Part shown: positions 36,091 to 59,790 of the stretch, one piece after another | How the letters are laid out: each line of letters begins with the position of its first letter | Position numbering within the stretch: position 1 is the first letter of the stretch | NCBI GenBank assembly: GCA_944383265.1 | Contig: CALWOX010000003.1 | Coordinates: 62,001-126,000, forward strand | Direction of reading: 5' to 3' | DNA: 64,000 nt | Source: an uncultured Lachnospiraceae bacterium | GTDB taxonomy: Bacteria; Bacillota; Clostridia; Lachnospirales; Lachnospiraceae | The notes under the pieces: generated by a model | The model's database searches: none | What the model was told of the DNA's origin: nothing | Seen by the model: the letters and a program-made list of their open reading frames with translations, nothing else | Program-made: the position numbers and the translations under genes

Positions 36091-37695
36091 TTATCGGCTG
36101 CCTGAATTCTCGGAAGCCCTCTGCCTGAGCATGTTGGGAGAAAGTCCCTCATACTTTTTGAAGCAATAGCTAAAGTAGTGCTGGTCATTGTAGCCGCATG
36201 CCTCGGATATCTCCCTTATTTTCATAGCAGTGTCCAAAAGCAGGTGCTTTGCATTTTCCATCCTTGTAAAGGTCAGGTAGTCTATAAAGCTTCTTCCTGT
36301 CTTTTTCTTTATGAGTACGCTGAGATAATTGGGGCTTACTCCGATATCAGTGCTTGCCTTCATAAGGGAAAGGTCCGCATCAGAATAATTCTTTTCTATA
36401 TAATCTATGGCATGCTCACATATATCCATGCTGCTTTTTGATTTTTTTTCGGCGATTATATTCATGGCATTTACGCAGAAGCTTATAAAATGCTCCTCAG
36501 CTTCAGAAAGCTCGCTGTCAAGAAATTCCATCTGCTGCATGAAACCGTCACTCTTTATTATTTTTGCGTCAGGCTCGGGAGCTGAGGAATAAAGTATCCT
36601 GCATACTCCTGAAAACAGCTCAACAAGAAAGAAGTCCGTCTCCTTCTTTGTAGCCTTTCTTTCTTCCAGAGCGGAAAATACCTTTCTCAAGCAGTCAGTG
36701 ACCTCCGCTTGCGTACCGGTCTTTATTTTTCCTTCGATAGTCGTCACAAGCTTCATGACCGAATCAATATCCATTCCGGAAAAGGGCTCCTCATCGGATA
36801 TATATCTTATCCTTCCCTCGGCTCCCTCCTTTGCATATTCCATAGCATTTACGGAATCCTTATATGCCTCATAGAGTCCGCACAAAAAAGGCGTCGACCT
36901 TCCCACGCCTATGGTACATTCCAGCTTAAGTATCCTCTCTGTGGACTGAATTATTTCATCAAATATTATATGAAGGTATTTATCAAAAGAATTGGGGGTA
37001 GCCGCAAGGACTGCAACTATCTTATCCCCGAAAAAGAAGGTGCTGTACTTGACATATTTCCTGAGTATGCTGTTTACAGCATGGACATGGCTGAATTCAG
37101 TTCTGTTGGTGCCGTCCTTATCCTTAAATCTCATGGAGATCACATTAAATCTGATGTTATCGGCTTCCTTGCCTATAAAGCCCCCTGCCACAGCCTGAGC
37201 CCTAAGCCTCGCTTCCCTTTCGGGAGAGCTGTCAGTCTGAGAAAAATCAAGCATAAGCGGCAGCAAAAATTCGGACATGCTCACCTCATTTTTCCTCGTC
37301 TCAGAGAATTCCTTGAAGATGCTGTCCAGCTTTTCCTTTATGTTTATAAGATTTTCCGTAAGCTCAGCCATGGATATCGGCTTTAAAAGGTAGCTTATTA
37401 TATTGTAGCGTATAGCTTCCTGAGCATAGGAAAAATCATCATATCCGCTCAAAAAGGCGATCTGGGTATAAGGCCTTACCTCCCTGACCTGCCTTGCAAG
37501 CTCAAGGCCCGATATAAAGGGCATCCTTATATCTGTAAGTAAAAGGTCAGGCTCGGTCTTTTCCACAAGGTCAAGAGCCTCGGCTCCGTTTTCCGCCTCT
37601 CCGACCACCTCAAAGCCTATGCTTTCCCAGTCTATCTTTCTGATGATAGCTCTTCTGAGCTCTTCCTCATCATCGGCAACTACGATCTTATACAT
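36091..37695 (-). CDS. Response regulator with AraC-type DNA-binding domain (YesN type)
   Basis: N-terminal receiver domain (MYKIVVADDEEE; phosphorylation site Asp55 in LLLTDIRMP; switch residues in AFLSGYDDFSYAQEAIRY), a variable middle region, and a C-terminal AraC helix-turn-helix pair (about 435-530: DLSLMKASTDIGVSPNYLSV, EISEACGYNDQHYFSYCFKK). The ATG at 37695 is 4 nt after AGGAGG, which lies in the end of the methyltransferase gene; the two genes overlap by 8 nt. It probably activates mglB-A-C in response to the adjacent kinase. Confidence 0.93.
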   Translation of the reverse strand: MYKIVVADDEEELRRAIIRKIDWESIGFEVVGEAENGAEALDLVEKTEPDLLLTDIRMPFISGLELARQVREVRPYTQIAFLSGYDDFSYAQEAIRYNIISYLLKPISMAELTENLINIKEKLDSIFKEFSETRKNEVSMSEFLLPLMLDFSQTDSSPEREARLRAQAVAGGFIGKEADNIRFNVISMRFKDKDGTNRTEFSHVHAVNSILRKYVKYSTFFFGDKIVAVLAATPNSFDKYLHIIFDEIIQSTERILKLECTIGVGRSTPFLCGLYEAYKDSVNAMEYAKEGAEGRIRYISDEEPFSGMDIDSVMKLVTTIEGKIKTGTQAEVTDCLRKVFSALEERKATKKETDFFLVELFSGVCRILYSSAPEPDAKIIKSDGFMQQMEFLDSELSEAEEHFISFCVNAMNIIAEKKSKSSMDICEHAIDYIEKNYSDADLSLMKASTDIGVSPNYLSVLIKKKTGRSFIDYLTFTRMENAKHLLLDTAMKIREISEACGYNDQHYFSYCFKKYEGLSPNMLRQRASENSGSR

Positions 37696-38869
37696 CAGGC
37701 CTCCTGTTTTTTTCTCTGTCCCTGTCAAGTACCTTTTTTATCTCGCGGGCGATTGCTTCTATCACATTTACCGTTACACTGTTTCCAAGCTGCTTATAAA
37801 GATGCGTGTCGGCAAGCTCAAGCCTGAAGCTGTCGGGAAAGCCCTGAAGCCTCGCCCACTCTCTGGGGGTCATCTTCCTTATGCCCTCCCTGTTTACCTC
37901 TCCCTTGATATGAGTCACAGGAGTGAGATCCTTAAGTCTGTTGTCGACTATAAGATTCCTCTCTCTTCCCATGCCTCCGCACACAAGGGCTCCGGCAATG
38001 CCGTCAATGTCCCTTATCTCATATCCGAAGCCGTTTCCCTTGTCCAGATGACGCTTTTTGTGTCTTCTTAGGGTCTCAAGATACACATCCGAAAGATAGT
38101 ATTTCACGCTCACCGGCTCCTTTTCCATTATGTCCTTTATGGATGTCTCCCGCTTTTCCCCTTCGGGAAATCTGAAGCTGCTGCTGTCGATATCTTTTCT
38201 GAAGGCTACTATGTATACTCTCTCCCTGTTTTGGGGCACACCGAAGTCCTTGCTGTTTAATACCGCTGTGTATACATTATACCCAAGCTGATTAAGTGTT
38301 CCCTTTATGATCTCAAAGGTCCTTCCTCTGTCGTGGATGACAAGCCCTTTTACATTCTCGCAAAATATGACCTTCGGTTTTCTGAATTCGCATATCCTCG
38401 CCACATCAAAAAAGAGTGTGCCTCTGGACATACCCTTGTAATCGTCATCAAAGCCCATGCGTTTTCCGGCGAGGCTGAAGGCCTGGCAAGGAAAACCTGC
38501 AAGGCAAAGATCAAATTCCGGGATCTTCTCCTCCTTCTCGGCAGTTATGTCTCCTGCTATGTCAAAGCTGTCATTAAAATTAAGTCTGTAGGTCTTTTTT
38601 GCATATTCGTCCCACTCGCAGACATATACAGTCTCTATCTCATCTCCGAAGGCTCTGTCAAAGCCCAGGCGTATACCTCCTATTCCGGCAAAAAGGTCTA
38701 TGGACTTAAAAACTCTTTTTTCGTGCTGAAGCTTCCTGTAATCTGAAAGTATATACTCTAATTTGCGGGAAAGGCTCTCACCTCTCCCGCTGTCCTCTAT
38801 TTCCTGTGCTTCTTTATCTGTAAGATATACAGTGTATGGCTTAAGGCTGTCTGTAGTCTCCTCGGGCAT
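37688..38869 (-). CDS. dcm: DNA (cytosine-5-)-methyltransferase
   Basis: C5 methyltransferase of about 393 residues. Motif I DLFAGIGGIRLGF, motif IV GFPCQAFSLAGKR with catalytic Cys128, motif VI ENVKGLV, motif VIII QNRERVYIVAF, and C-terminal GNSVTVNVIEAIA are all present, so it should be active. The ATG at 38869 (MPEETTD) has GGAGA upstream. It is preceded by vsr and has no restriction endonuclease nearby, so it looks like an orphan, Dcm-like enzyme; its target sequence is unknown. The last 8 nt overlap the response regulator start. Confidence 0.93.
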   Translation of the reverse strand: MPEETTDSLKPYTVYLTDKEAQEIEDSGRGESLSRKLEYILSDYRKLQHEKRVFKSIDLFAGIGGIRLGFDRAFGDEIETVYVCEWDEYAKKTYRLNFNDSFDIAGDITAEKEEKIPEFDLCLAGFPCQAFSLAGKRMGFDDDYKGMSRGTLFFDVARICEFRKPKVIFCENVKGLVIHDRGRTFEIIKGTLNQLGYNVYTAVLNSKDFGVPQNRERVYIVAFRKDIDSSSFRFPEGEKRETSIKDIMEKEPVSVKYYLSDVYLETLRRHKKRHLDKGNGFGYEIRDIDGIAGALVCGGMGRERNLIVDNRLKDLTPVTHIKGEVNREGIRKMTPREWARLQGFPDSFRLELADTHLYKQLGNSVTVNVIEAIAREIKKVLDRDREKNRRPDV

Positions 38870-38922
38870 ATTCAATCTCCGTCTTAAAAATTTATTTGTA
38901 ATTATAGCCCAAAACTTATTTT

Positions 38923-39381
38923 TTAGCAATCCGGAAGAAAGGATTCTCCTGTTCGCTCGTTCACAGTTTCATGAATCAGCCTTTCGATCTCCTCAACACA
39001 ACTCTCGGGGGCCTTGAGTATATCCTTTCTCCAAAAGTGCAGGACTCTGTATCCGAGAAATTCCAGCTCCTTATCCACCTTGTAATCTCTCTCTATATTT
39101 TTGCCTATCTTTTCTATCCAGAACTCTCCTCGAGGCTGTCCCTCGAAATGCTTTTTCAGGGCTTCAAAGTCTTTTCCGTGAAAAAACTCGCTGTCACAAA
39201 AAACAGCTATCTTATACTTTGTCAGCACTATATCGGGCTTTCCGGGGAGATTTTTATAGTTTTTCCTGTACCTTATGCCCCGCTCCCAAAGCTTTTTTCT
39301 CAGGACAAGCTCGATATCTGTATCACGGCTTTTTACTCTGCGCATATTTTCGCTGCGCTTTGACTTGCTTATCCTGTCCAT
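38923..39381 (-). CDS. vsr: Very short patch repair (Vsr) endonuclease
   Basis: 152 residues, normal for Vsr, which nicks at T:G mismatches produced by deamination of 5-methylcytosine. MRRVKSRDTDIELVLRKKLW matches the N-terminal helix, and GKPDIVLTKYKIAVF contains the metal-binding Asp. The usual HGCFWH segment is replaced by CDSEFFHGKD, as in a divergent Firmicutes subgroup. It lies between the amidohydrolase (3-nt gap) and dcm (53-nt gap), so methylation and its repair are made together. Confidence 0.9.
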   Translation of the reverse strand: MDRISKSKRSENMRRVKSRDTDIELVLRKKLWERGIRYRKNYKNLPGKPDIVLTKYKIAVFCDSEFFHGKDFEALKKHFEGQPRGEFWIEKIGKNIERDYKVDKELEFLGYRVLHFWRKDILKAPESCVEEIERLIHETVNERTGESFLPDC

Positions 39382-47390: not shown

Positions 47391-48248
47391 TTATAATACA
47401 GCTTTGGTATTTTTTTCGTAAATGAGCTTCAGCCCCTTGAGCTTCAAGTTCTCGTCATATTCTGTTTTTATACTGCCATAAGGCCTGCTTTCCGCTGACG
47501 GAGGGCAGGCTTTTGTCACAGCATTTATATCGAAAAATCTCATTATTTTTCCCGCATGTACTCCCGTCATTATGACTGTTGAGATGGCCTGTTTCTCATA
47601 TATCCGCCTTATTATTCCCTCACAAAGAGCCGCTGTACCATATATAATTCCGCTCTGCATTGCTTCCTCTGTATTTGTACCTATAAGTTCCTTGGGGGAC
47701 TCCAGGCTTATATCGTAAAGCCTGGATGCGGACTCTGAAAGAGCTCTGAGAGATGGTCCCATGCCCGGGCATATGATACTTCCTGTATATTGCTTTTTTT
47801 CATTTATCACAGAAAAAACCGTGGCGGTTCCGAAATCCGCCACAACAGCAGGTGTATCGTACAGATTTACCGCCCCTACGGCATTTGAAATGAGATCCGT
47901 ACCTATCATAGCAGGATTATCCATAAGTATTTGAAGACCTGTCTTAAGCCCCGGCCCCGCTGTCTTGCACGGAGCCTTGGTAAAGTCTTCAACGGCATTT
48001 TTGATCACAGAGGTAAGTCCCGGAACCACAGAAGCTATTATGCTTCCCTCCACCTCGCAGCTCCTTAAGCCATTGAGCTCAAAGATATTTTTAAAGGTCA
48101 GTATATAGTCAAGACCTGTCTTTTTTATATCCGTGGCTGTCTCTGCTGTAAATACAGGGACAGATCTTCCATCCTTATTACCTTCTTTTCTCCCGGGGAA
48201 GGCTGCCATGCTTATATATTCATTTCCCACATTAAGCGTAAATATCAT
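47391..48248 (-). CDS. coaX: Type III pantothenate kinase (CoaX) homologue, divergent
   Basis: Acetate-and-sugar-kinase-like fold, 285 residues. CoaX phosphorylates pantothenate in coenzyme A synthesis. VVADFGTATVFSVI (Asp138) and CPGMGPSLRALSESASRL match the family, and SGIIYGTAALCEGI is typical. Two hallmark sites differ: the N-terminal DVGNT-type motif reads LNVGNE with Asn6 for Asp, and the GADR-type motif reads GTDL (Asp118 kept, Arg lost). The codon for Asn6 is unambiguous. It overlaps the PanT-like gene by 17 nt, which supports a pantothenate role. It may be altered in activity or be a regulator. Confidence 0.8.
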   Translation of the reverse strand: MIFTLNVGNEYISMAAFPGRKEGNKDGRSVPVFTAETATDIKKTGLDYILTFKNIFELNGLRSCEVEGSIIASVVPGLTSVIKNAVEDFTKAPCKTAGPGLKTGLQILMDNPAMIGTDLISNAVGAVNLYDTPAVVADFGTATVFSVINEKKQYTGSIICPGMGPSLRALSESASRLYDISLESPKELIGTNTEEAMQSGIIYGTAALCEGIIRRIYEKQAISTVIMTGVHAGKIMRFFDINAVTKACPPSAESRPYGSIKTEYDENLKLKGLKLIYEKNTKAVL

Positions 48249-48855
48249 TTCTTAATAATACCTTTCCGATAAAAGCGGTCAATATTCCTGCAGCAACAGC
48301 CTCAGGTATTCCGGATGCAAAGACCGTGCCCATTATAAGGCCCCAGACAGCGTCCGCAGTCACATCCTTTGCAATAGCATATTCCTTTGCCAAAAGCAAA
48401 TATATACTTCCCATTACGATAAGAGTGTGAAACATTGACATAAGAAAGCCCTCAACGGGCAATGTCAGACTGCTTTTACTCGACAATTTTCTTAAAAGCT
48501 TCCATAGGATACCGGCCGAAAAGCCCATTAATATCCTGCAGCCTACAGATATCCATAATGCCTTTACCGCCCCCGAAAGTCCCGTCGTGCTCATAAACGG
48601 TGAAAAGGCAAAGGAGAGAAGTGGGGGGGCAAAGGTATTACTCAAGACAGAGCATACTCCAAATACCGCTCCCAGAAAGGCCCCTGCCGAAGGCCCGAAG
48701 ATCACAGCTCCCAGAATCACAGGGATGTGTACGGTAGTTGCCTTTATAACGGGCAGCTGTATCATTCCCAAAGGCGTGTTTGCCAAAACTATAATAACAG
48801 CCGCCATAAGTGCAACTCCGCTCATTTTGCGCAGTTTGCTTTCATTTCTTTTCAT
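48232..48855 (-). CDS. ECF transporter S-component, pantothenate (PanT)-like
   Basis: 207-residue, six-helix membrane protein. VIIVLANTPLGMIQLPVIKA, TVHIPVILGAVIFGPSAGAF and GAVFGVCSVLSNTF are characteristic of the PanT-like S-component group. It needs the EcfAAT module from elsewhere. AAGGAGG precedes the ATG. It starts 93 bp after luxC and overlaps coaX by 17 nt, so uptake and phosphorylation of pantothenate are probably coupled. Specificity is inferred from family and neighbour. Confidence 0.82.
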   Translation of the reverse strand: MKRNESKLRKMSGVALMAAVIIVLANTPLGMIQLPVIKATTVHIPVILGAVIFGPSAGAFLGAVFGVCSVLSNTFAPPLLSFAFSPFMSTTGLSGAVKALWISVGCRILMGFSAGILWKLLRKLSSKSSLTLPVEGFLMSMFHTLIVMGSIYLLLAKEYAIAKDVTADAVWGLIMGTVFASGIPEAVAAGILTAFIGKVLLRNDIYA

Positions 48856-48948: not shown

Positions 48949-50124
48949 TCAGAAACTTTGTATCTCCGCCCTCCTTGTATATTCATAAAGGGGTGCTCTT
49001 CCGTCATGATACTCTCCCGGAATATACTCTGACATGTCTGCAGGCTTCCTTACTCTGTGAGCTCCGGCTTTTATAAGGAGCTGCGAGATAGCTGCTCTCT
49101 CATCATCTTTGCATATGAGCCCTGCTGTCTGCAAAGAATATGGTAGGCTTCTGAGTTCATCAAACAGGCTTTCCCTGTCAAATCCTTTTACAGGGCAGCC
49201 CAAAAGATTGAGCCCCTGGGCTCCGTCATCCCCTCTCAGCTCTGATAAAAGCCTGTCTGTATAATTTAAAAGTGTGTCTGCAGCATCCTGTCCGAGCGTA
49301 TCTTCGTTATATTTACATATCGAATTTATATATTGCACAGCCTTATAAAGCTCGTCACTGTTTTCAGCCTCAATATAAACAGCCTGACAGGAGCTGCAAA
49401 GTCTCATTTTTGTCTTTGATATATGCTCAAGCAATCCTTGCAGTGATGCTTTATCCTTTAATCCCCTTTTGGTGATACAGACAAAACTGAATTTATGTCC
49501 CCATTCTATTAGCCTTTTATCAGGACCTGCAAGATTTCTTACGAATCTTACAGCTTCGTCTCCTCCCCATATGCTGACAGCATCAGACAGTGATATAAGC
49601 TTCTTTATTTTACGCTCTACATCGGCACTTTCAGATGGTATATCAAACATATAGATATAAGGCTTGAGCTCCGGCTCTGCCCTCACAAGCTCTCTTAATA
49701 TAAAGCCGGAAATAATGCTGTCTGACGCCGCAGGCTTAAGTACATTAATATTTCCTGAAAGAAGCCCTTCTATCACACTGAATGCCCCAAGCCCCGGCAT
49801 ATTTCCCGCCCCTATATGAAGAATAACTCCCAGAGGGACTCTGTCCGAGGCATCAGGAAGTTCATTTTTAAGTCTTTGTCTCAAGGTATCCTCCGATATA
49901 AGCTTAAGTGCCCTTGAAATCTGAGGATCTGTCTCTCTATAAGTTTCTCCCCATTTGATGCCGCCTGTAAAAAACTTTTCACCTATAGCCTTTATAAAAC
50001 TGTCATAGTATCCGCTTTTAACATTATCCGAAAGCTTGCCGAGAGCATGAAGTACCTTCTCAGGCTGCAGATATTCTTCCTTTAGGGTTTTATTTATTTT
50101 GAATTCCAGCTCTTCAAACTTCAT
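48949..50124 (-). CDS. Acyl-CoA reductase, LuxC-like
   Basis: 391 residues of the LuxC family (aldehyde-dehydrogenase-like fold), which reduces an enzyme-bound or CoA-linked acyl group to aldehyde with NADPH. ILHIGAGNMPGLGAFSVIEG and LLSGNINVLKPAASDS form the nucleotide-binding region, and RLCSSCQAVYIE holds candidate catalytic Cys243 and Cys246. GGAGGAT in the end of the preceding gene serves as its ribosome site, with a 3-nt gap. Paired with a LuxE-like gene but no luciferase (LuxA/B) is present. In lux operons the pair converts fatty acid to aldehyde. Confidence 0.85.
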   Translation of the reverse strand: MKFEELEFKINKTLKEEYLQPEKVLHALGKLSDNVKSGYYDSFIKAIGEKFFTGGIKWGETYRETDPQISRALKLISEDTLRQRLKNELPDASDRVPLGVILHIGAGNMPGLGAFSVIEGLLSGNINVLKPAASDSIISGFILRELVRAEPELKPYIYMFDIPSESADVERKIKKLISLSDAVSIWGGDEAVRFVRNLAGPDKRLIEWGHKFSFVCITKRGLKDKASLQGLLEHISKTKMRLCSSCQAVYIEAENSDELYKAVQYINSICKYNEDTLGQDAADTLLNYTDRLLSELRGDDGAQGLNLLGCPVKGFDRESLFDELRSLPYSLQTAGLICKDDERAAISQLLIKAGAHRVRKPADMSEYIPGEYHDGRAPLYEYTRRAEIQSF

Positions 50125-50127
50125 TTT

Positions 50128-51291
50128 TTATCCTCCGAAGCCCACAAGATCATATGCGCTCTGAGCACAGGTCACTATTTCGGGGAGTCCCACCCTCTTT
50201 ACTATCTCAAAATATGGTGTTTGTATTCCGCATCCGCAGTCCTTTCCCTCTCTGAGTACGGCAATATCGTCTGTCATCACGCTTAAAAGAGGAATGCTCT
50301 CGGCTATAGGAGTTATAAGATTCAGCAGTCCCTCTTTTCCATAAGATAAAGGCTCTAAGTTTTTTTCATCTCTTATTAATACCCTGCTGTATATCGGCAC
50401 ATGAAAATGTCCGTTTTTGCAGCTGCAATAAAGGCAGGGATGCTCTGCCGCTCCGAAAAACTCTCTCACGCAGGCTCCGTCTGTCCCGAGGATATGCTTT
50501 GAGAGCCTGCGCAATTCATCGGCGTCAACCTTTATCCCCTCAAAGCTTTTCCACCCTCCTCCCAGAAGGACCATAGAGCCTTTCGGAAGACTGAGCCTTT
50601 TTCCCGAGGCCTCCAATTTCTTTAGAAGAAAATAGAAATATGAAGGAAAGCCTATTATCCTTACGGGAAATACAGACCGTTCAAAACTGCAAAGAGATCT
50701 TAGGACTCCCTCGGCGTTAAGCCTGTACCCTGATTTTGTATATTTGAGAGCATAGCTTTTCCTTAAGGGCGGAGCAAAAAAGGATGATATTCTCTGTGTT
50801 TTTGCTATAACTGTCTTGTTCGAGGGATGAGGCTCAAAGCCAAGCATAATATAATTTGCCGGCTTTGCCGAAAAAAGTCCGTGAAATCTTCCGAGCCTGA
50901 ATGTAAGGGCGGCTCCGAATATTATTGTGTCAAGATCATAGCCCATTTCGCTCCTTTTCCCCTTAGTTCCCGAGGATGTAGCCTTTATGAGCATTTTCCT
51001 GCTATCCATAGTTCTGATATTCCTCCGCTTAAAAAGCGCCGTGGGTATAGGCGGTATCAGCGAAATATCACAAGGCTTTCTTATCTTTTCCACAGCTTTT
51101 GCCGCAAGTCTCTTCCCGCTCATTCCGTTAAGCTTCATTTCAGCTTCCACGATCCGCGCATACTCAGGATTATGTAAAATATGATAAAAAAGATTCTGTC
51201 TTACCGCACCAAGAAAAATATCCTCTGTACCGTTGATATCATACGGATTCTTATTGAGATACAGAGGTATCCTTCTGTCATAATTTCTCAT
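50128..51291 (-). CDS. Acyl-protein synthetase, LuxE-like
   Basis: About 387 residues of the LuxE/PaaK-related adenylating family, which activates fatty acids as acyl-AMP and transfers the acyl group to a Cys and then to LuxC. The phosphate-binding motif is ATSSGTKGKRS (about residues 104-114); GFPSYFYFLLKKLE and MVLLGGGWKSFEG are further conserved parts, followed by FFGAAEHPCLYC with Cys near the C-terminal third. The ATG at 51291 is 10 nt after TGGAGG; the GTG at 51300 is too close to it. It directly precedes luxC. Confidence 0.83.
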   Translation of the reverse strand: MRNYDRRIPLYLNKNPYDINGTEDIFLGAVRQNLFYHILHNPEYARIVEAEMKLNGMSGKRLAAKAVEKIRKPCDISLIPPIPTALFKRRNIRTMDSRKMLIKATSSGTKGKRSEMGYDLDTIIFGAALTFRLGRFHGLFSAKPANYIMLGFEPHPSNKTVIAKTQRISSFFAPPLRKSYALKYTKSGYRLNAEGVLRSLCSFERSVFPVRIIGFPSYFYFLLKKLEASGKRLSLPKGSMVLLGGGWKSFEGIKVDADELRRLSKHILGTDGACVREFFGAAEHPCLYCSCKNGHFHVPIYSRVLIRDEKNLEPLSYGKEGLLNLITPIAESIPLLSVMTDDIAVLREGKDCGCGIQTPYFEIVKRVGLPEIVTCAQSAYDLVGFGG

Positions 51292-51362
51292 ATTGTGCAC
51301 ACCTCCATATTTATCCTGATACTGTGTCCTTCTCTATATGAATATTTATAATGTTCGTGTTT

Positions 51363-52739
51363 CTAAAAGCCCGTCTCCTTAAGCTCATGCACAAGCTCCA
51401 CGTAAAATTCCCTCACATCAAAGCCCTCTATATTTTCCCTGTTAAGATCGATAACGTCTCCGTGAGATATACCCCTCTTTCCTTTGGGAGTAAGGAAAGT
51501 ATATTTGCTTCCCCATTTAAAGGAGCTTTCCGCCACGAGTCCGTCGTTGGGACCGTCAAAAAGCTTCACAAGCTCATGTGAAAAATTAAGAGGAAATTGT
51601 CCTCCTTTCGCCTTCAAAAGCTTGGAGCCTATACTCTGATAGTATACTCTCGGATCATCCTTTACCTCCCGGTTGAATTTCTCGCAGGCGGATGCGGTAA
51701 GATCTGTAACCGCCGCCATAAAATCAGGCGATTCATCTCCCAGCTTTTTTAATGTGCTGTTATAGGTCTCCTCTACCCTTTTCTTTACATTATCAGGTAT
51801 CTTCTCCAAAAGATAGTCGGCAAATATGCATCCCCTGTGAGGAGTATTTACAGTGGTGAGAGATGCAACCCTGTCTCCCTCTCCAAGCATTGCTATAGCG
51901 TATCTTGAGTCAAGGCCTCCTTTTGAATGGGCTATTATGTTTACCTTCTCCGCCCCTGTTTCCTTCAAGATATCTCTTATCCTTAGAGAAAGCTCCTGAG
52001 CGCTGTCCTTTACTGCTGCGGCGGACTGATGATTTCCATAATAAATCTTTGCCCCGTTTTCTTTAAGCTCCGCAGGTATCCTTCCCCAATAATTAAAGTA
52101 CTTGAAATCTCTGAAGAAAACTCCGTGTACAAGAAGTATCGGGTATCTTGTCTCACATATCCTGTCCTGTTTTCTTGACACATCAAGAAGAAGCTTCTCG
52201 TTTTCAAAGCTTACCTCGCGGGCCGCAGTCCTTATTATCTTTATGAGAACAAATAAGTTTAAGGGAAATATCATTCCGCATATTATTCCTATAGTTCTGA
52301 GCTTTATTCCAAGCTGCAGAGATGAAACATACACTCTTATTATCCCGTTCCAAAATACTATGGCCTCCATTGCCCCGCTAAGTAAAATACATGTAATTAA
52401 TGCAAGGCCCCCATGAGACAAAAGCACGTTTAGATTGATAATATAGAAAATTACGAGAAATGCCGAAGAAATAAGAAATGCTGAAAGAAGCATCACTCCT
52501 TTAAAGCAGCGCCTAAGTCTCTTTGTAACTGTCCTACAGGGCTTCATCACAGGCATTATATTAAAGTATAAGAATGCCGATAAAAGAAGAAACACATATA
52601 ATCCGCTTCGTATAAAATCCATTCCGCTCAGATTCCCAAAAATAAGCCGTATGGGAGTATAGCCCGCTGTAAGAAAAAATACAACCGACAAAATCACACA
52701 ATAAAATCTATCCTTTAATTCAAGGCCTTCCCCTCTCAA
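51363..52739 (-). CDS. Membrane-anchored serine lipase, alpha/beta hydrolase
   Basis: 458 residues. Residues 1-170 hold four or five hydrophobic helices; residues 195-458 form an alpha/beta hydrolase with oxyanion motif YPILLVHGVFF and nucleophile elbow IIAHSKGGLD (Ser272). The GDVIDL ending carries the likely catalytic His. The body is closely related to the smaller lipase just upstream, pointing to tandem duplication with gain of a membrane part. The start is TTG at 52739, 8 nt after GAGAGGG within the tail of that gene. It precedes the LuxE-like gene by 71 bp. Confidence 0.82.
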   Translation of the reverse strand: MRGEGLELKDRFYCVILSVVFFLTAGYTPIRLIFGNLSGMDFIRSGLYVFLLLSAFLYFNIMPVMKPCRTVTKRLRRCFKGVMLLSAFLISSAFLVIFYIINLNVLLSHGGLALITCILLSGAMEAIVFWNGIIRVYVSSLQLGIKLRTIGIICGMIFPLNLFVLIKIIRTAAREVSFENEKLLLDVSRKQDRICETRYPILLVHGVFFRDFKYFNYWGRIPAELKENGAKIYYGNHQSAAAVKDSAQELSLRIRDILKETGAEKVNIIAHSKGGLDSRYAIAMLGEGDRVASLTTVNTPHRGCIFADYLLEKIPDNVKKRVEETYNSTLKKLGDESPDFMAAVTDLTASACEKFNREVKDDPRVYYQSIGSKLLKAKGGQFPLNFSHELVKLFDGPNDGLVAESSFKWGSKYTFLTPKGKRGISHGDVIDLNRENIEGFDVREFYVELVHELKETGF

Positions 52740-52741
52740 TT

Positions 52742-53572
52742 CTAAAACCCTCTCTTTCTGAGATCGTCCGCTATATCAACATAGAGCTTTAAAATATCAG
52801 GCCTGATATATTCTCTGCCGCGCCAATCTGCTATATCCCAGTGTGAATAACCGAAATATCTGTTTTTTGCTTTCGCATCCGGCCTTAACAATCTGTAGTT
52901 TTTCCACCTTCTTTGTGAGTATTCGCCGCAAAGCCCGTCATTTTCCCCGTCGAAAAGCTTTATAAACCGGTAGCAGCGGTTTAACGGAGGCTGTGCGTCA
53001 GAGGCCCTTAAAAGCTTTGTGCCAAAGCTCTGATAATATACAGATTCATCGTCGGGCATAATGCTGTTTAAACGGAGGCAGCCCTTAGCGGAAAGGTCTG
53101 TAATCGTTTTTAAAAAGTCGGGCCTCGTGTCTCCGAGCCTTAAAAACTTTTTGTTTTCATAATCGACTATCCGGCTCTTTATGGGCCCCGGAAGTACCTT
53201 CAGAAGAAAGTCAATATACCTGCAGCCCCCATGTGGAGTATTTATAGTGGTGAGAGAGGCTACATATCTCCCCTTTTCGAGAACGCTTATGGCATATCTT
53301 GAGTCCAGACCTCCCTTTGAATGAGCAATTATATTAAGCTTTTCCGCACCGGATTTCTCTATTATCTCCTCTATCCTGCGGGCCAAAAATATTCCGTTTT
53401 CCTCTACGCCACAGGCAGCATTCTGATTTCCACGATAGATAACAGCTCCGTTTTTAATAAGCTCCGAGGGTATCTCTCCCCAGGGGTCAAGATTTCCATC
53501 ATCTCTCAAAAAAGCTCCATGAACAAGCATTATAGGATATTTGGTTTTGCAGCTTTGCACTTTATTATCCAT
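52742..53572 (-). CDS. Serine lipase, alpha/beta hydrolase (soluble form)
   Basis: 276 residues, triacylglycerol-lipase-like. It has oxyanion motif YPIMLVHGAFLRDDG, nucleophile elbow IIAHSKGGLD (Ser85), FDGENDGLCGEYS, probably around the acid residue, and GYSHWDIADW with the likely catalytic His. It lacks a signal peptide and membrane segment, so it should be cytoplasmic. The start ATG has no clear ribosome site; a TATAAT-like box ends only 8 nt before it, suggesting a very short leader or a leaderless message. It heads the run lipase-lipase-LuxE-LuxC. Confidence 0.82.
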   Translation of the reverse strand: MDNKVQSCKTKYPIMLVHGAFLRDDGNLDPWGEIPSELIKNGAVIYRGNQNAACGVEENGIFLARRIEEIIEKSGAEKLNIIAHSKGGLDSRYAISVLEKGRYVASLTTINTPHGGCRYIDFLLKVLPGPIKSRIVDYENKKFLRLGDTRPDFLKTITDLSAKGCLRLNSIMPDDESVYYQSFGTKLLRASDAQPPLNRCYRFIKLFDGENDGLCGEYSQRRWKNYRLLRPDAKAKNRYFGYSHWDIADWRGREYIRPDILKLYVDIADDLRKRGF

Positions 53573-56818: not shown

Positions 56819-57892
56819 TTATGCCGCTTCTTTCTGCGCTTCCGCATCCATATAAGCGTCGATACGGACAGAGACATTTTCCTGCAGGTTTCTGTAGAAG
56901 AATTGGTAATCGTAAAGATGGTAAATGCCGTCCTCAAAGATATAAAGGCCTGCGGGGTAATCTTCCGGCGTTACATCTGTTATCTTGAGGGCTCCACGTT
57001 TAGGATCTATGTAAGCGCCTGTCAGCTCCGGAATCTCCTCGGTGATGTTTCCGTCATAGTCTGTGAAGCGGGCTCCCTTGTTGAGGCTCTTATCAGCAGG
57101 TGTGCTGTCAGTAGTCCAATTTAAGGGATTAATGCAGAGGCTGCGGGTTCCCGCAGGAATCATCATGGAATCGGTGACAGATTCCGCCTCGCTGTTAAAG
57201 GCTATGATCACACCGGTATCATCTTTTGAGGAAGCAAAGTTCAGCCAAGGATACTCTGAAAGCTCTTCCTCTGTGATGCTCCAGCCAATGGCATAGCAGG
57301 CGATGAGTTGTTCCTGAAGCGCCGGGTCCTCAAATTTATCCTTTAAAAGACGAATGCACAGATCCGCACCCTGAGAGAAGCCCGCCAATATAATAGGCTG
57401 CCCCTCATTTTCGTGTTCCAAATAATAATCGAAGGCCCGGGAGATATCCTCATAGGCAAACTGCAGCCACGGTTCTCGTTCTTCGGCGGACAGCTCATAT
57501 ACATTGAGTCCTGCCTGACGGTAGTAGGGGGCGAAGAAACGAGCATCCTCGTCATAGATGCCTTTTTCCATGTTGGTAGCTCCCAGAAAGTCAGCCTTTG
57601 TCTCTTCATCAGAAAGGCTCATGTTGAAAACATCCTCATCACCACTGTAAACTGTAGGGCAAATAAAGAACACATCCGCCGAGGCATCGTTCGGACCTTC
57701 CCCAATATAGGCCCAATTTTCCGAAAGGCTGTAATCAGGCGCGGTGGTATCTGTGTCTTCGACTTTGTCAGTGGAAGCTACTCTGGTCTCGACAGAATCC
57801 GCAGTCGTTTCATCTGCGGTATTTCGGATGCAGCCTGCAAGGACAGACGCAAGCAAGAGCCCTGAAACAAGAATTTTTATAGGTTTTTTCAT
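56819..57892 (-). CDS. DUF3089 family alpha/beta hydrolase lipoprotein
   Basis: 357 residues with a lipobox LAGC (Cys21), so it is held on the outer face of the membrane. The DUF3089 region has VFFICPTVYSG near residue 75, RFFAPYYRQAGLNVY, and the nucleophile elbow LAGFSQGADL with Ser173. It is probably an esterase of unknown substrate. AAAGGAGG precedes the ATG. It stands alone between terminators. Confidence 0.85.
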   Translation of the reverse strand: MKKPIKILVSGLLLASVLAGCIRNTADETTADSVETRVASTDKVEDTDTTAPDYSLSENWAYIGEGPNDASADVFFICPTVYSGDEDVFNMSLSDEETKADFLGATNMEKGIYDEDARFFAPYYRQAGLNVYELSAEEREPWLQFAYEDISRAFDYYLEHENEGQPIILAGFSQGADLCIRLLKDKFEDPALQEQLIACYAIGWSITEEELSEYPWLNFASSKDDTGVIIAFNSEAESVTDSMMIPAGTRSLCINPLNWTTDSTPADKSLNKGARFTDYDGNITEEIPELTGAYIDPKRGALKITDVTPEDYPAGLYIFEDGIYHLYDYQFFYRNLQENVSVRIDAYMDAEAQKEAA

Positions 57893-58050: not shown

Positions 58051-59061
58051 TTAGAACTTTCCGTTCTCTGCAGCTTCCTGAACAGCAACCGCTACAGCCA
58101 CAGTCGCGCCAACCATAGGGTTATTTCCCATTCCGATAAGTCCCATCATCTCAACGTGAGCGGGAACTGATGATGAACCTGCAAACTGTGCGTCAGAGTG
58201 CATACGTCCAAGGGTATCTGTCATTCCGTAGGAAGCGGGACCTGCAGCCATATTGTCGGGATGAAGTGTACGTCCTGTACCGCCGCCTGATGCAACTGAG
58301 AAGTACTTCTTTCCTGCCTCAAGTCTCTCCTTCTTGTAGGTTCCTGCAACGGGATGCTGGAAACGAGTGGGGTTGGTTGAGTTTCCTGTGATGGATACGT
58401 CAACGTTCTCCTTCCACATAATAGCAACGCCCTCTGAAACGCTGTTTGCTCCGTAGCAGTTTACCTTTGCTCTGGGGCCGTTTGAGTATGACTTTCTTGA
58501 AACTTCCTTAACTGTATTTGTATAGGGATCGTACTCTGTCTCAACTGATGTGAATCCGTTGATCCTTGAGATTATAACGGTTGCATCCTTTCCGAGACCG
58601 TTAAGTATAACGCGGAGAGGTTTCTTACGAACCTTGTTAGCGTTGTTTGCTATACCGATAGCGCCCTCTGCAGCTGCAAACGACTCATGTCCTGCAAGGA
58701 AGCAGAAACACTCTGTATCCTCTGAAAGGAGCATCTTGCCGAGGTTTCCGTGTCCGAGACCTACCTTACGGTTGTCGGCAACAGAACCGGGGATACAGAA
58801 AGCCTGAAGTCCCTCACCTATAGCTGCCGCAGCATCAGCCGCATTTCTGCAGCCCTTCTTTATAGCGATGGCAGCGCCTGTGATGTATGCCCAGCATGCA
58901 TTTTCAAAGCAGATAGGCTGAACGCCCTTTACCATGCTGTAAACATCAAGTCCGGCGTCCTCGGTTATCTTTCTCGCCTCTTCAATATCCTTAATTCCGT
59001 ATGAGTTAAGGACTTCGTTTATCTTGTCTATTCTTCTCTCATATCCTTCGAAAAGTGCCAT
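58051..59061 (-). CDS. GGGtGRT protein
   Basis: 336 residues matching the uncharacterised GGGtGRT family, named after its motif, seen here as SGGGTGRTLHP near residue 255. Other conserved parts are CWAYITGAAIAIKKG, AFCIPGSVADNRKVGLGHGN, FLAGHESFAAAEGAIG and ITGNSTNPTRFQHP. No membrane segment or signal. AAGGAGG precedes the ATG and it begins 21 bp after the Fe-S scaffold gene. Function is unknown; the constant pairing with a NifU/IscU-like scaffold suggests a metallocofactor-linked enzyme. Confidence 0.88.
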   Translation of the reverse strand: MALFEGYERRIDKINEVLNSYGIKDIEEARKITEDAGLDVYSMVKGVQPICFENACWAYITGAAIAIKKGCRNAADAAAAIGEGLQAFCIPGSVADNRKVGLGHGNLGKMLLSEDTECFCFLAGHESFAAAEGAIGIANNANKVRKKPLRVILNGLGKDATVIISRINGFTSVETEYDPYTNTVKEVSRKSYSNGPRAKVNCYGANSVSEGVAIMWKENVDVSITGNSTNPTRFQHPVAGTYKKERLEAGKKYFSVASGGGTGRTLHPDNMAAGPASYGMTDTLGRMHSDAQFAGSSSVPAHVEMMGLIGMGNNPMVGATVAVAVAVQEAAENGKF

Positions 59062-59082
59062 AATTCTTATCCTCCTTAACCC

Positions 59083-59790
59083 TTATCTCTCTATCTCTTT
59101 GTCTGTACGAGGATCGATTATCTTTACCGCATCCTCAACACGACCGTATTTTCCCTTAGCCTTCTCATATGCTGTGTTGGGATCGTCGCCCTTCTTTATG
59201 AAGTCGGTCATCTTTCCGAGAGAAACGAACTCGTATCCTATTATCTGGTTCTCCTCGTCAAGTGCGATACCTGTTACATAGCCCTCTGCCATCTCAAGGT
59301 ATCTGGGACCCTTCTTGAGAGTTCCGTACATTGTTCCGACCTGTGAGCGGAGTCCCTTTCCGAGATCCTCAAGACCTGCTCCTACAGGAAGTCCGTCGTC
59401 AGAAAATGCAGACTGTGAACGTCCGTAAGCGATCTGAAGGAAAAGCTCTCTCATAGCTGTATTTATCGCGTCACATACAAGGTCGGTATTGAGTGCCTCC
59501 AAAACTGTGAGTCCGGGAAGGATCTCAGCCGCCATAGCAGCGGAATGTGTCATTCCTGAACATCCGATAGTCTCCACAAGGGCCTCCTGGATTATTCCAT
59601 CCTTTATGTTGAGAGTAAGCTTACATGCTCCCTGCTGAGGCGCACACCAGCCCACTCCGTGAGTAAGACCTGAAATATCCTTTACCTCTTTTGCCTGTAT
59701 CCACTTTCCCTCTTCAGGAATAGGAGCGGCTCCGTGATGTACGCCCTGAGCTACAGGACACATCTTTTCAACTTCCTGTGTGTAAATCAT
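59083..59790 (-). CDS. Iron-sulfur cluster assembly scaffold-like protein paired with GGGtGRT
   Basis: 235 residues with a NifU/IscU N-terminal-like core. LVETIGCSGMTHSAAMAAEIL and THGVGWCAPQQGAC contain Cys residues in positions like those of IscU, and the C-terminal part (about 150-235) is extra. AAAGGAG precedes the ATG. It lies directly upstream of the GGGtGRT gene on the same transcript. Whether it builds or carries a cluster for that partner is inference. The 268-bp stretch upstream (59791-60058) holds only promoter-like AT-rich sequence. Confidence 0.82.
   Translation of the reverse strand: MIYTQEVEKMCPVAQGVHHGAAPIPEEGKWIQAKEVKDISGLTHGVGWCAPQQGACKLTLNIKDGIIQEALVETIGCSGMTHSAAMAAEILPGLTVLEALNTDLVCDAINTAMRELFLQIAYGRSQSAFSDDGLPVGAGLEDLGKGLRSQVGTMYGTLKKGPRYLEMAEGYVTGIALDEENQIIGYEFVSLGKMTDFIKKGDDPNTAYEKAKGKYGRVEDAVKIIDPRTDKEIER

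Follow-up and report, generated by a model that had tools for sequence, protein, structure and literature searches.

What feeds a LuxE-LuxC reductase pair that stands beside two lipase genes, and what purpose the pair serves there, is the question raised by a 64,000-nucleotide stretch (the window) of contig CALWOX010000003.1 from an uncultured Lachnospiraceae bacterium, probably a clostridial anaerobe. We denote its genome G000; other G-numbers are compared genomes and L-numbers compared DNA stretches. On its minus strand the window carries, in this order, genes for the lipases LipA and LipB, a LuxE-type acyl-protein synthetase, and a LuxC-type acyl reductase, separated by 2, 62, and 3 nucleotides (nt; Table 1). 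We propose, with moderate confidence, that LuxE-LuxC acts here as a fatty-acid reductase module whose acyl groups are supplied by the lipases encoded alongside it. The enzymes are known ones in a compact and uncommon combination, and the locus is a variation on known parts, not a new kind of system. A first-pass annotation had described four genes packed on one strand, which the open frames in 48949-53572 bear out. It gave the gaps as 2, 71, and 3 nt; the outer two agree with ours, and the middle one is 62 nt from the GTG start of LuxE and 71 nt only if LuxE starts at an ATG three codons further in.

LuxC matched PF05893 at 134.2 bits (cut-off 21) and LuxE matched PF04443 at 110.7 bits (cut-off 24.9). 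Profiles of nine sequences each, the window protein and eight relatives, were built for LuxE (A1) and LuxC (A2) and searched against the PDB. The LuxE profile found the LuxE chain of 7xc6 (E 2.4e-38) and the LuxC profile its LuxC chain (E 6.6e-28). PMC8301110 places the acylation sites of P. phosphoreum at Cys364 in LuxE and at Cys286 in LuxC, the latter within the motif YDQQACFSTQ. Cys378 of the window LuxE and Cys243 of its LuxC fall on these sites in the 7xc6 alignments and were invariant in all nine sequences of the respective alignments (A1 and A2), and on this comparison the acyl-carrying cysteines are kept in both window subunits. The LuxE-like and LuxC-like labels first given to the two genes are upheld by the Pfam scores, the 7xc6 matches, and the retained cysteines.

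LipA scored over the Pfam cut-off for DUF676, and LipB over those for Abhydrolase_1, DUF676, and Lipase_2. In a sequence search of the PDB both matched triacylglycerol lipases of Burkholderia and Pseudomonas. AlphaFold2 models (mean predicted local distance difference test score, pLDDT, 83.5 for LipA and 91.6 for LipB) gave 9g8u and 1ex9 as best Foldseek matches of LipA, and 1ex9 and 4lip as those of LipB. The Ser, Asp, and His columns were invariant in 24 aligned lipases and likewise in an alignment of nine; as far as alignment can tell, the Ser-Asp-His triad is intact in both proteins, its role being taken from comparison with the known family. The LipB model places four long helices (residues 8-25, 42-61, 73-101, and 111-139), two short ones (27-34 and 103-108), and a broken one (145-154/158-190) before the lipase part, in agreement with the four or five N-terminal helices read from the sequence at first pass. 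Several of these helices are hydrophobic, and the charges that follow helix 2 suggest that this loop is cytosolic; the fifth, broken helix might cross the membrane or stay on one side of it. LipA, with a highest 19-residue hydropathy value of 0.58, has no strongly hydrophobic segment.

The two lipases are 46-48% identical and had been called paralogous. The homology stands, and a recent tandem duplication does not. In a tree of 24 sequences, out of about 70 from the family search, LipA and the lipases of two congeners of the window's organism (G021 and G017) form one long-branched clade, LipB lies among membrane-part lipases of other genera, and the lipase of a genome from another genus (G233) falls in a third group; the distinct clades of LipA and LipB speak against a recent duplication. 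LipB groups with membrane-part lipases from across the bacterial family and shares 50-58% identity with 13 of them.

The absence of luxA/luxB, claimed at first pass, was confirmed: PF00296 went unmatched at E 0.001 in G000, whose assembly is 97.5% complete, and was found in none of the six genomes searched, with 10 of 14 controls positive. No LuxD family appeared among the Pfam matches of LipA and LipB up to E 1, which rules out LuxD membership for these two lipases; this LuxD check covered the two proteins and not the other genes of the genome. The LuxC-LuxE of luminous bacteria, both chains of which are held in 7xc6, shares with the window pair the two families and both acylation cysteines. 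The luminous system also has LuxD and luciferase, whereas in the window luciferase was not found and lipases outside the LuxD family occupy the acyl-supply position; the window further differs in having LuxE directly before LuxC and in scores below the NCBIfam equivalog cut-offs, as detailed later. Family I lipases (Pseudomonas aeruginosa 1ex9, Burkholderia 4lip, and 1cvl) have the fold and the triad in common with LipA and LipB. Unlike them, LipA has no strongly hydrophobic segment and LipB has a membrane part, and no foldase is found among the four genes. The membrane-part lipases of the same bacterial family that group with LipB are like it, but no LuxE was seen near their loci.

In the luminous system, as PMC8301110 describes it, LuxE makes acyl-AMP and then acyl-Cys, and the acyl group moves to LuxC, where NADPH reduces it to aldehyde. 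With lipases ahead of LuxE, neither of them of the LuxD family, and no luciferase found, the most economical inference is that the acid comes from lipids through the lipases. Membrane-anchored LipB and cytosolic LipA would cut ester-bound acyl chains from glycerolipids to give free fatty acid. LuxE would use ATP to convert the acid to acyl-AMP and load it on Cys378, and the acyl group would pass to Cys243 of LuxC for NADPH-dependent reduction to the aldehyde. The lipases would fill the job of LuxD, drawing on lipids instead of acyl-acyl carrier protein or acyl-coenzyme A (CoA), and the aldehyde would go to general alcohol dehydrogenases or re-enter membrane lipids. The gene order, the protein families, the predicted folds, the catalytic residues, and the common inheritance within the genus rest on observation; the activities, a long-chain substrate, the transfer of acid from lipase to LuxE, and what becomes of the aldehyde we infer. 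More tentatively still, the locus could be an oxygen-free route from membrane lipid to fatty aldehyde, in which a membrane-bound and a soluble lipase replace LuxD and feed LuxE-LuxC, supplying an anaerobe with aldehydes or alcohols of its own from which to make membrane or signal lipids; it might then exemplify a wider role of lux-type reductases in Clostridia-like bacteria that has had little study.

A lipid to fatty acid to aldehyde pathway had been put forward in the first-pass annotation. Its acid-to-aldehyde reductase is borne out by family, its lipase link only in part, and its plasmalogen precursors not at all. PF09989, which we take to be of the PlsA kind, was present in 9 of 9 genomes, among them three without LuxE (G018, G011, and G005); plasmalogen genes were dropped as partners of LuxE-LuxC because they do not discriminate between genomes with and without the pair. 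The PlsA/PlsR plasmalogen synthase of anaerobes belongs to other protein families than LuxE-LuxC. It also reduces lipid acyl groups, but does so directly on the diacyl lipid, according to a review that also cites the use of long-chain aldehydes (PMC9702350). Because PF09989 occurs with and without the pair and anaerobes can reduce diacyl lipid directly, plasmalogens need not be involved.

Loci were collected from searches of 99 relatives, 397 genomes of the bacterial family, 391 genomes of the class, and two named contigs (Christensenella sp. and a Firmicutes metagenome-assembled genome). A close LuxE type (>400 bits) was present in 20 of the 397 family genomes, and LuxE at E 1e-60 or better in 14 of the 391 class genomes, G000 being counted in both. 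LuxE was followed by LuxC on the same strand in all 38 relative loci, with a gap of at most 100 nt (overlaps counted) in 35; L028-L031, with a remoter LuxE type, were left out of the 38, and there too the two genes adjoin or are fused. These stand-alone pairs of related Bacillota have the gene order of the window, and the cysteines are kept in the eight aligned relatives. When neighbours were clustered at 25 loci, no cluster besides LuxE/LuxC occurred in more than three, most neighbours being unannotated; MATE transporters lay nearby at three loci. LuxE-LuxC is a widespread free-standing two-gene unit, and a lipase is outside its usual setting. In four genomes LuxC, still after a separate LuxE, carries a second AMP-binding ligase domain as a fusion (L117:89-2563, L120:7485-9950, L121:7750-10389, and L049:3367-5961), and these fusions may hint at the fate of the acid or aldehyde. 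An open-access literature search turned up no paper on LuxE-LuxC pairs in Clostridia.

The first-pass annotation had made its proposal depend on conserved linkage of the genes in relatives, and the answer was divided. A three-gene form with one lipase, whose frame touches that of LuxE, was found in G021, and a lipase with a LuxC relic in G017. Only the window showed all four genes together, and no lipase of the LipA/LipB family was present in the DNA fetched around 36 of the 38 loci, the exceptions being G021 and G233; some stretches end at contig ends (e.g. L027, L051, L112, and L117), where a lipase further out would be missed. In the class sample none of 13 fetched LuxE-LuxC regions held a lipase, lipases not having been searched genome-wide there, and 20 further lipase loci inspected in the family had no LuxE close by. 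A simple motif scan for any hydrolase within 3 kb of the 38 loci returned only those of G021 and G233 and one about 1.9 kb downstream in L024, a match in L116 being judged false; this speaks against a hydrolase of any kind as the usual companion of LuxE-LuxC.

Within the window's genus, lipases of the LipA/LipB family were found in 3 of 25 genomes (G000, G021, and G017), all at the same chromosomal place, and each has LuxC or a LuxC relic beside the lipase; the other 22 gave neither, although several genomes are incomplete (53-99%) and absences there are not proof. LuxE of the window type was present in 2 of the 25, a weak 28% match in G013 not being counted. G017 has the same neighbours as the window, with 210 nt between the lipase and the ECF-transporter gene. 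There lies the relic (L078:1612-1710), which matches the C-terminal 34 residues of the G021 LuxC at 62% identity (E 1.4e-7 in a small search) and the window LuxC at 48% (E 1e-3). From the relic and the same neighbours it follows that the three probably descend from an ancestor in which lipase and LuxC stood together, and that G017 probably lost the pair and kept the lipase. This history cuts both ways: it speaks for shared inheritance and not for strict dependence. A flavodoxin + 4Fe-4S gene, presumably EFR1-like, lies upstream of the lipase by 39 nt in G021 (L022:12831-13607) and by 57 nt in G017 (L078:2637-3389), and is not beside the window lipase.

In G233 three genes separate the pair from the lipase, which lies about 2.3 kb upstream on the same strand. 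The region (L037:5587-11001) reads lipase, RecU and two other genes, then a damaged-looking LuxE-LuxC: the LuxE reading is broken across frames, and about 100 residues are missing from that of LuxC, which may instead be an assembly error. Among the other 23 genomes of that genus, none had the close LuxE type and six had the remoter one. LuxE and LuxC of G000, G021, and G233 each form one clade among 26 rows (support 99/96 and 96/98), and the G233 lipase belongs to a clade other than those of LipA and LipB. Two lipase clades beside one LuxE-LuxC clade suggest, on tree evidence, that a lipase joined the pair more than once, favouring a functional tie; the other possibility is that LipB was lost in G021 and G017.

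Of the 397 family genomes, 73 had lipases of the LipA/LipB family; three of these matches were weak (G144, G149, and G281) and were removed before testing. A lipase was present in 9 of 20 genomes with the close LuxE type and in 61 of 377 without it (one-sided Fisher test, p = 0.003); without G000 and G233 the count was 7 of 18 (p = 0.02), both values being uncorrected for genome size and kinship. The remoter LuxE type gave no lipase excess (6 of 30, p = 0.44). Between G000 and G021, LuxE is 64%, LuxC 56%, and LipA 58% identical, with proportions of differing sites of 0.24-0.30 at non-synonymous (pN) and 0.70-0.77 at synonymous (pS) positions. Six of seven flanking genes are 71-98% identical, and the seventh, a metallo-beta-lactamase-fold protein, 59%. 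Synonymous divergence of the module exceeds that of the same six genes and is similar to that of the seventh, which fits old divergence or replacement. Since synonymous sites are near saturation, constraint is shown and the exact ratio is not. To judge from these comparisons, the module seems to be selectively kept where present, fast-evolving, and open to loss.

Several observations weigh against lipases feeding LuxE-LuxC. No aldehyde-using enzyme is found among the four genes, and LipA and LipB seem to be without the secreted form of the enzymes they resemble. LuxC scored 42.8 bits against an NCBIfam equivalog cut-off of 750, and LuxE 66.1 against 550, so long-chain specificity cannot be carried over and the window proteins are family relatives, not equivalogs. 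The co-occurrence test ignores genome size and kinship, and among the positive genomes are several large ones (up to 6.9 Mb); in the seven family genomes besides G000 and G233 that have both genes, a long distance or a contig boundary separates lipase from LuxE. The main rival, which we judge rather unlikely, is that LuxE-LuxC reduces a non-lipid carboxylic acid, aromatic or sugar-linked, and that the lipases trim that group or are unrelated. A CxCG motif near the end of LuxE in the window and eight relatives is absent from the 7xc6 LuxE and present in phenylacetate-CoA ligase in the alignments, and NCBIfam BagE/FevW is a very weak LuxE relative (18 of 800 bits). Grixazone synthesis has a LuxC/LuxE-type pair, GriC/GriD, which our literature search did not return. 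In flagellar glycan islands of Aeromonas, luxE and luxC lie beside glycosyltransferases, and yet the authors link both to a fatty-acid part (PMC7874193). Against a non-lipid substrate stand the resemblance of LipA and LipB to triacylglycerol lipases and the lack of any recurrent neighbour in the clustering described above.

Lipases and LuxE-LuxC might also be mere neighbours without a common pathway, accessory genes gathered at one place. The lipase that G017 keeps after the loss of LuxE-LuxC, the lipase loci without LuxE, the 36 loci without such a lipase, and the flavodoxin-ferredoxin gene that is likewise close to the lipase in G021 and G017 all favour this explanation; against it count the common inheritance within the genus, the presence of two lipase clades next to a single pair, and the window gaps of 2-62 nt, and we consider it unlikely. 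That the module runs mainly in reverse, or salvages aldehydes and acids from plasmalogen breakdown with LuxC oxidising aldehyde to acyl-LuxC, we regard as highly improbable. The PF09989 proteins, if of the PlsA kind, make plasmalogens plausible, and LuxC, which matches the aldehyde dehydrogenase family PF00171 below cut-off, is by this score a remote relative of those enzymes; but LuxE would need to run backwards, no third enzyme for plasmalogen breakdown is found among the four genes, and nothing supports this reading directly.

Table 1. Genes and functional residues of the lipase-LuxE-LuxC locus (positions in the window).
Feature	Position	Strand	Basis
LipA, soluble alpha/beta-hydrolase lipase, 276 amino acids	52742..53572	-	open reading frame, Pfam, fold
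LipA catalytic codons	Ser85 53318-53320; Asp212 52937-52939; His244 52841-52843	-	lipase alignments
LipB, lipase with N-terminal membrane part, 458 amino acids, TTG start	51363..52739	-	open reading frame, Pfam, fold
LipB catalytic codons	Ser272 51924-51926; Asp399 51543-51545; His426 51462-51464	-	lipase alignments
LipB N-terminal membrane part, about residues 1-180	52200..52739	-	AlphaFold2 model, hydropathy
LuxE-type acyl-protein synthetase, 390 amino acids from GTG	50128..51300	-	PF04443
LuxE putative acyl-carrying Cys378	50167-50169	-	aligned to Cys near end of 7xc6 chain E
LuxC-type acyl reductase, 391 amino acids	48949..50124	-	PF05893
LuxC putative acyl-carrying Cys243	49396-49398	-	aligned to Cys in YDQQACFSTQ of 7xc6 chain A

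Upstream of LipA, 121 nt away on the same strand, lies an SMR (SugE-type) gene. An ECF-transporter S component follows 93 nt downstream of LuxC and overlaps a type III pantothenate kinase (47391-48855); the two perhaps serve to take up pantothenate and to begin CoA synthesis. G021 does not have the kinase at the corresponding place. A promoter scan gave 14 hits against 13.5 in shuffled sequences, no excess, and a terminator scan 9 against 5.7 (standard deviation 2.7). The GC content of the four genes (0.416-0.441, window 0.441) is uninformative on foreign origin. Elsewhere in the window, a GGGtGRT protein (PF14057) lies beside a second protein without a Pfam match at E 0.001, presumably IscU-like (58051-59790), both 98% identical in G021. 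A DUF3089 protein (56819-57892) with, by eye, a lipoprotein-like start is 85% identical in G021 and G017, and a cytosine methyltransferase-like gene adjoins a Vsr-like endonuclease gene (37688-39381), as read by eye from the list of open reading frames only.

Our results suggest that the lipase-linked form is a lineage-specific variant that hints at the substrate of LuxE-LuxC, with a narrow linkage and a pair that is easily lost. LuxE-LuxC, best known from bioluminescence, is a regular if sporadic unit in the relatives, with the luciferase family absent in the six genomes checked, and this stand-alone unit merits investigation. Gene order points to a substrate in one place alone, the lipase-linked form, and the purpose of LuxE-LuxC in these relatives therefore becomes testable.

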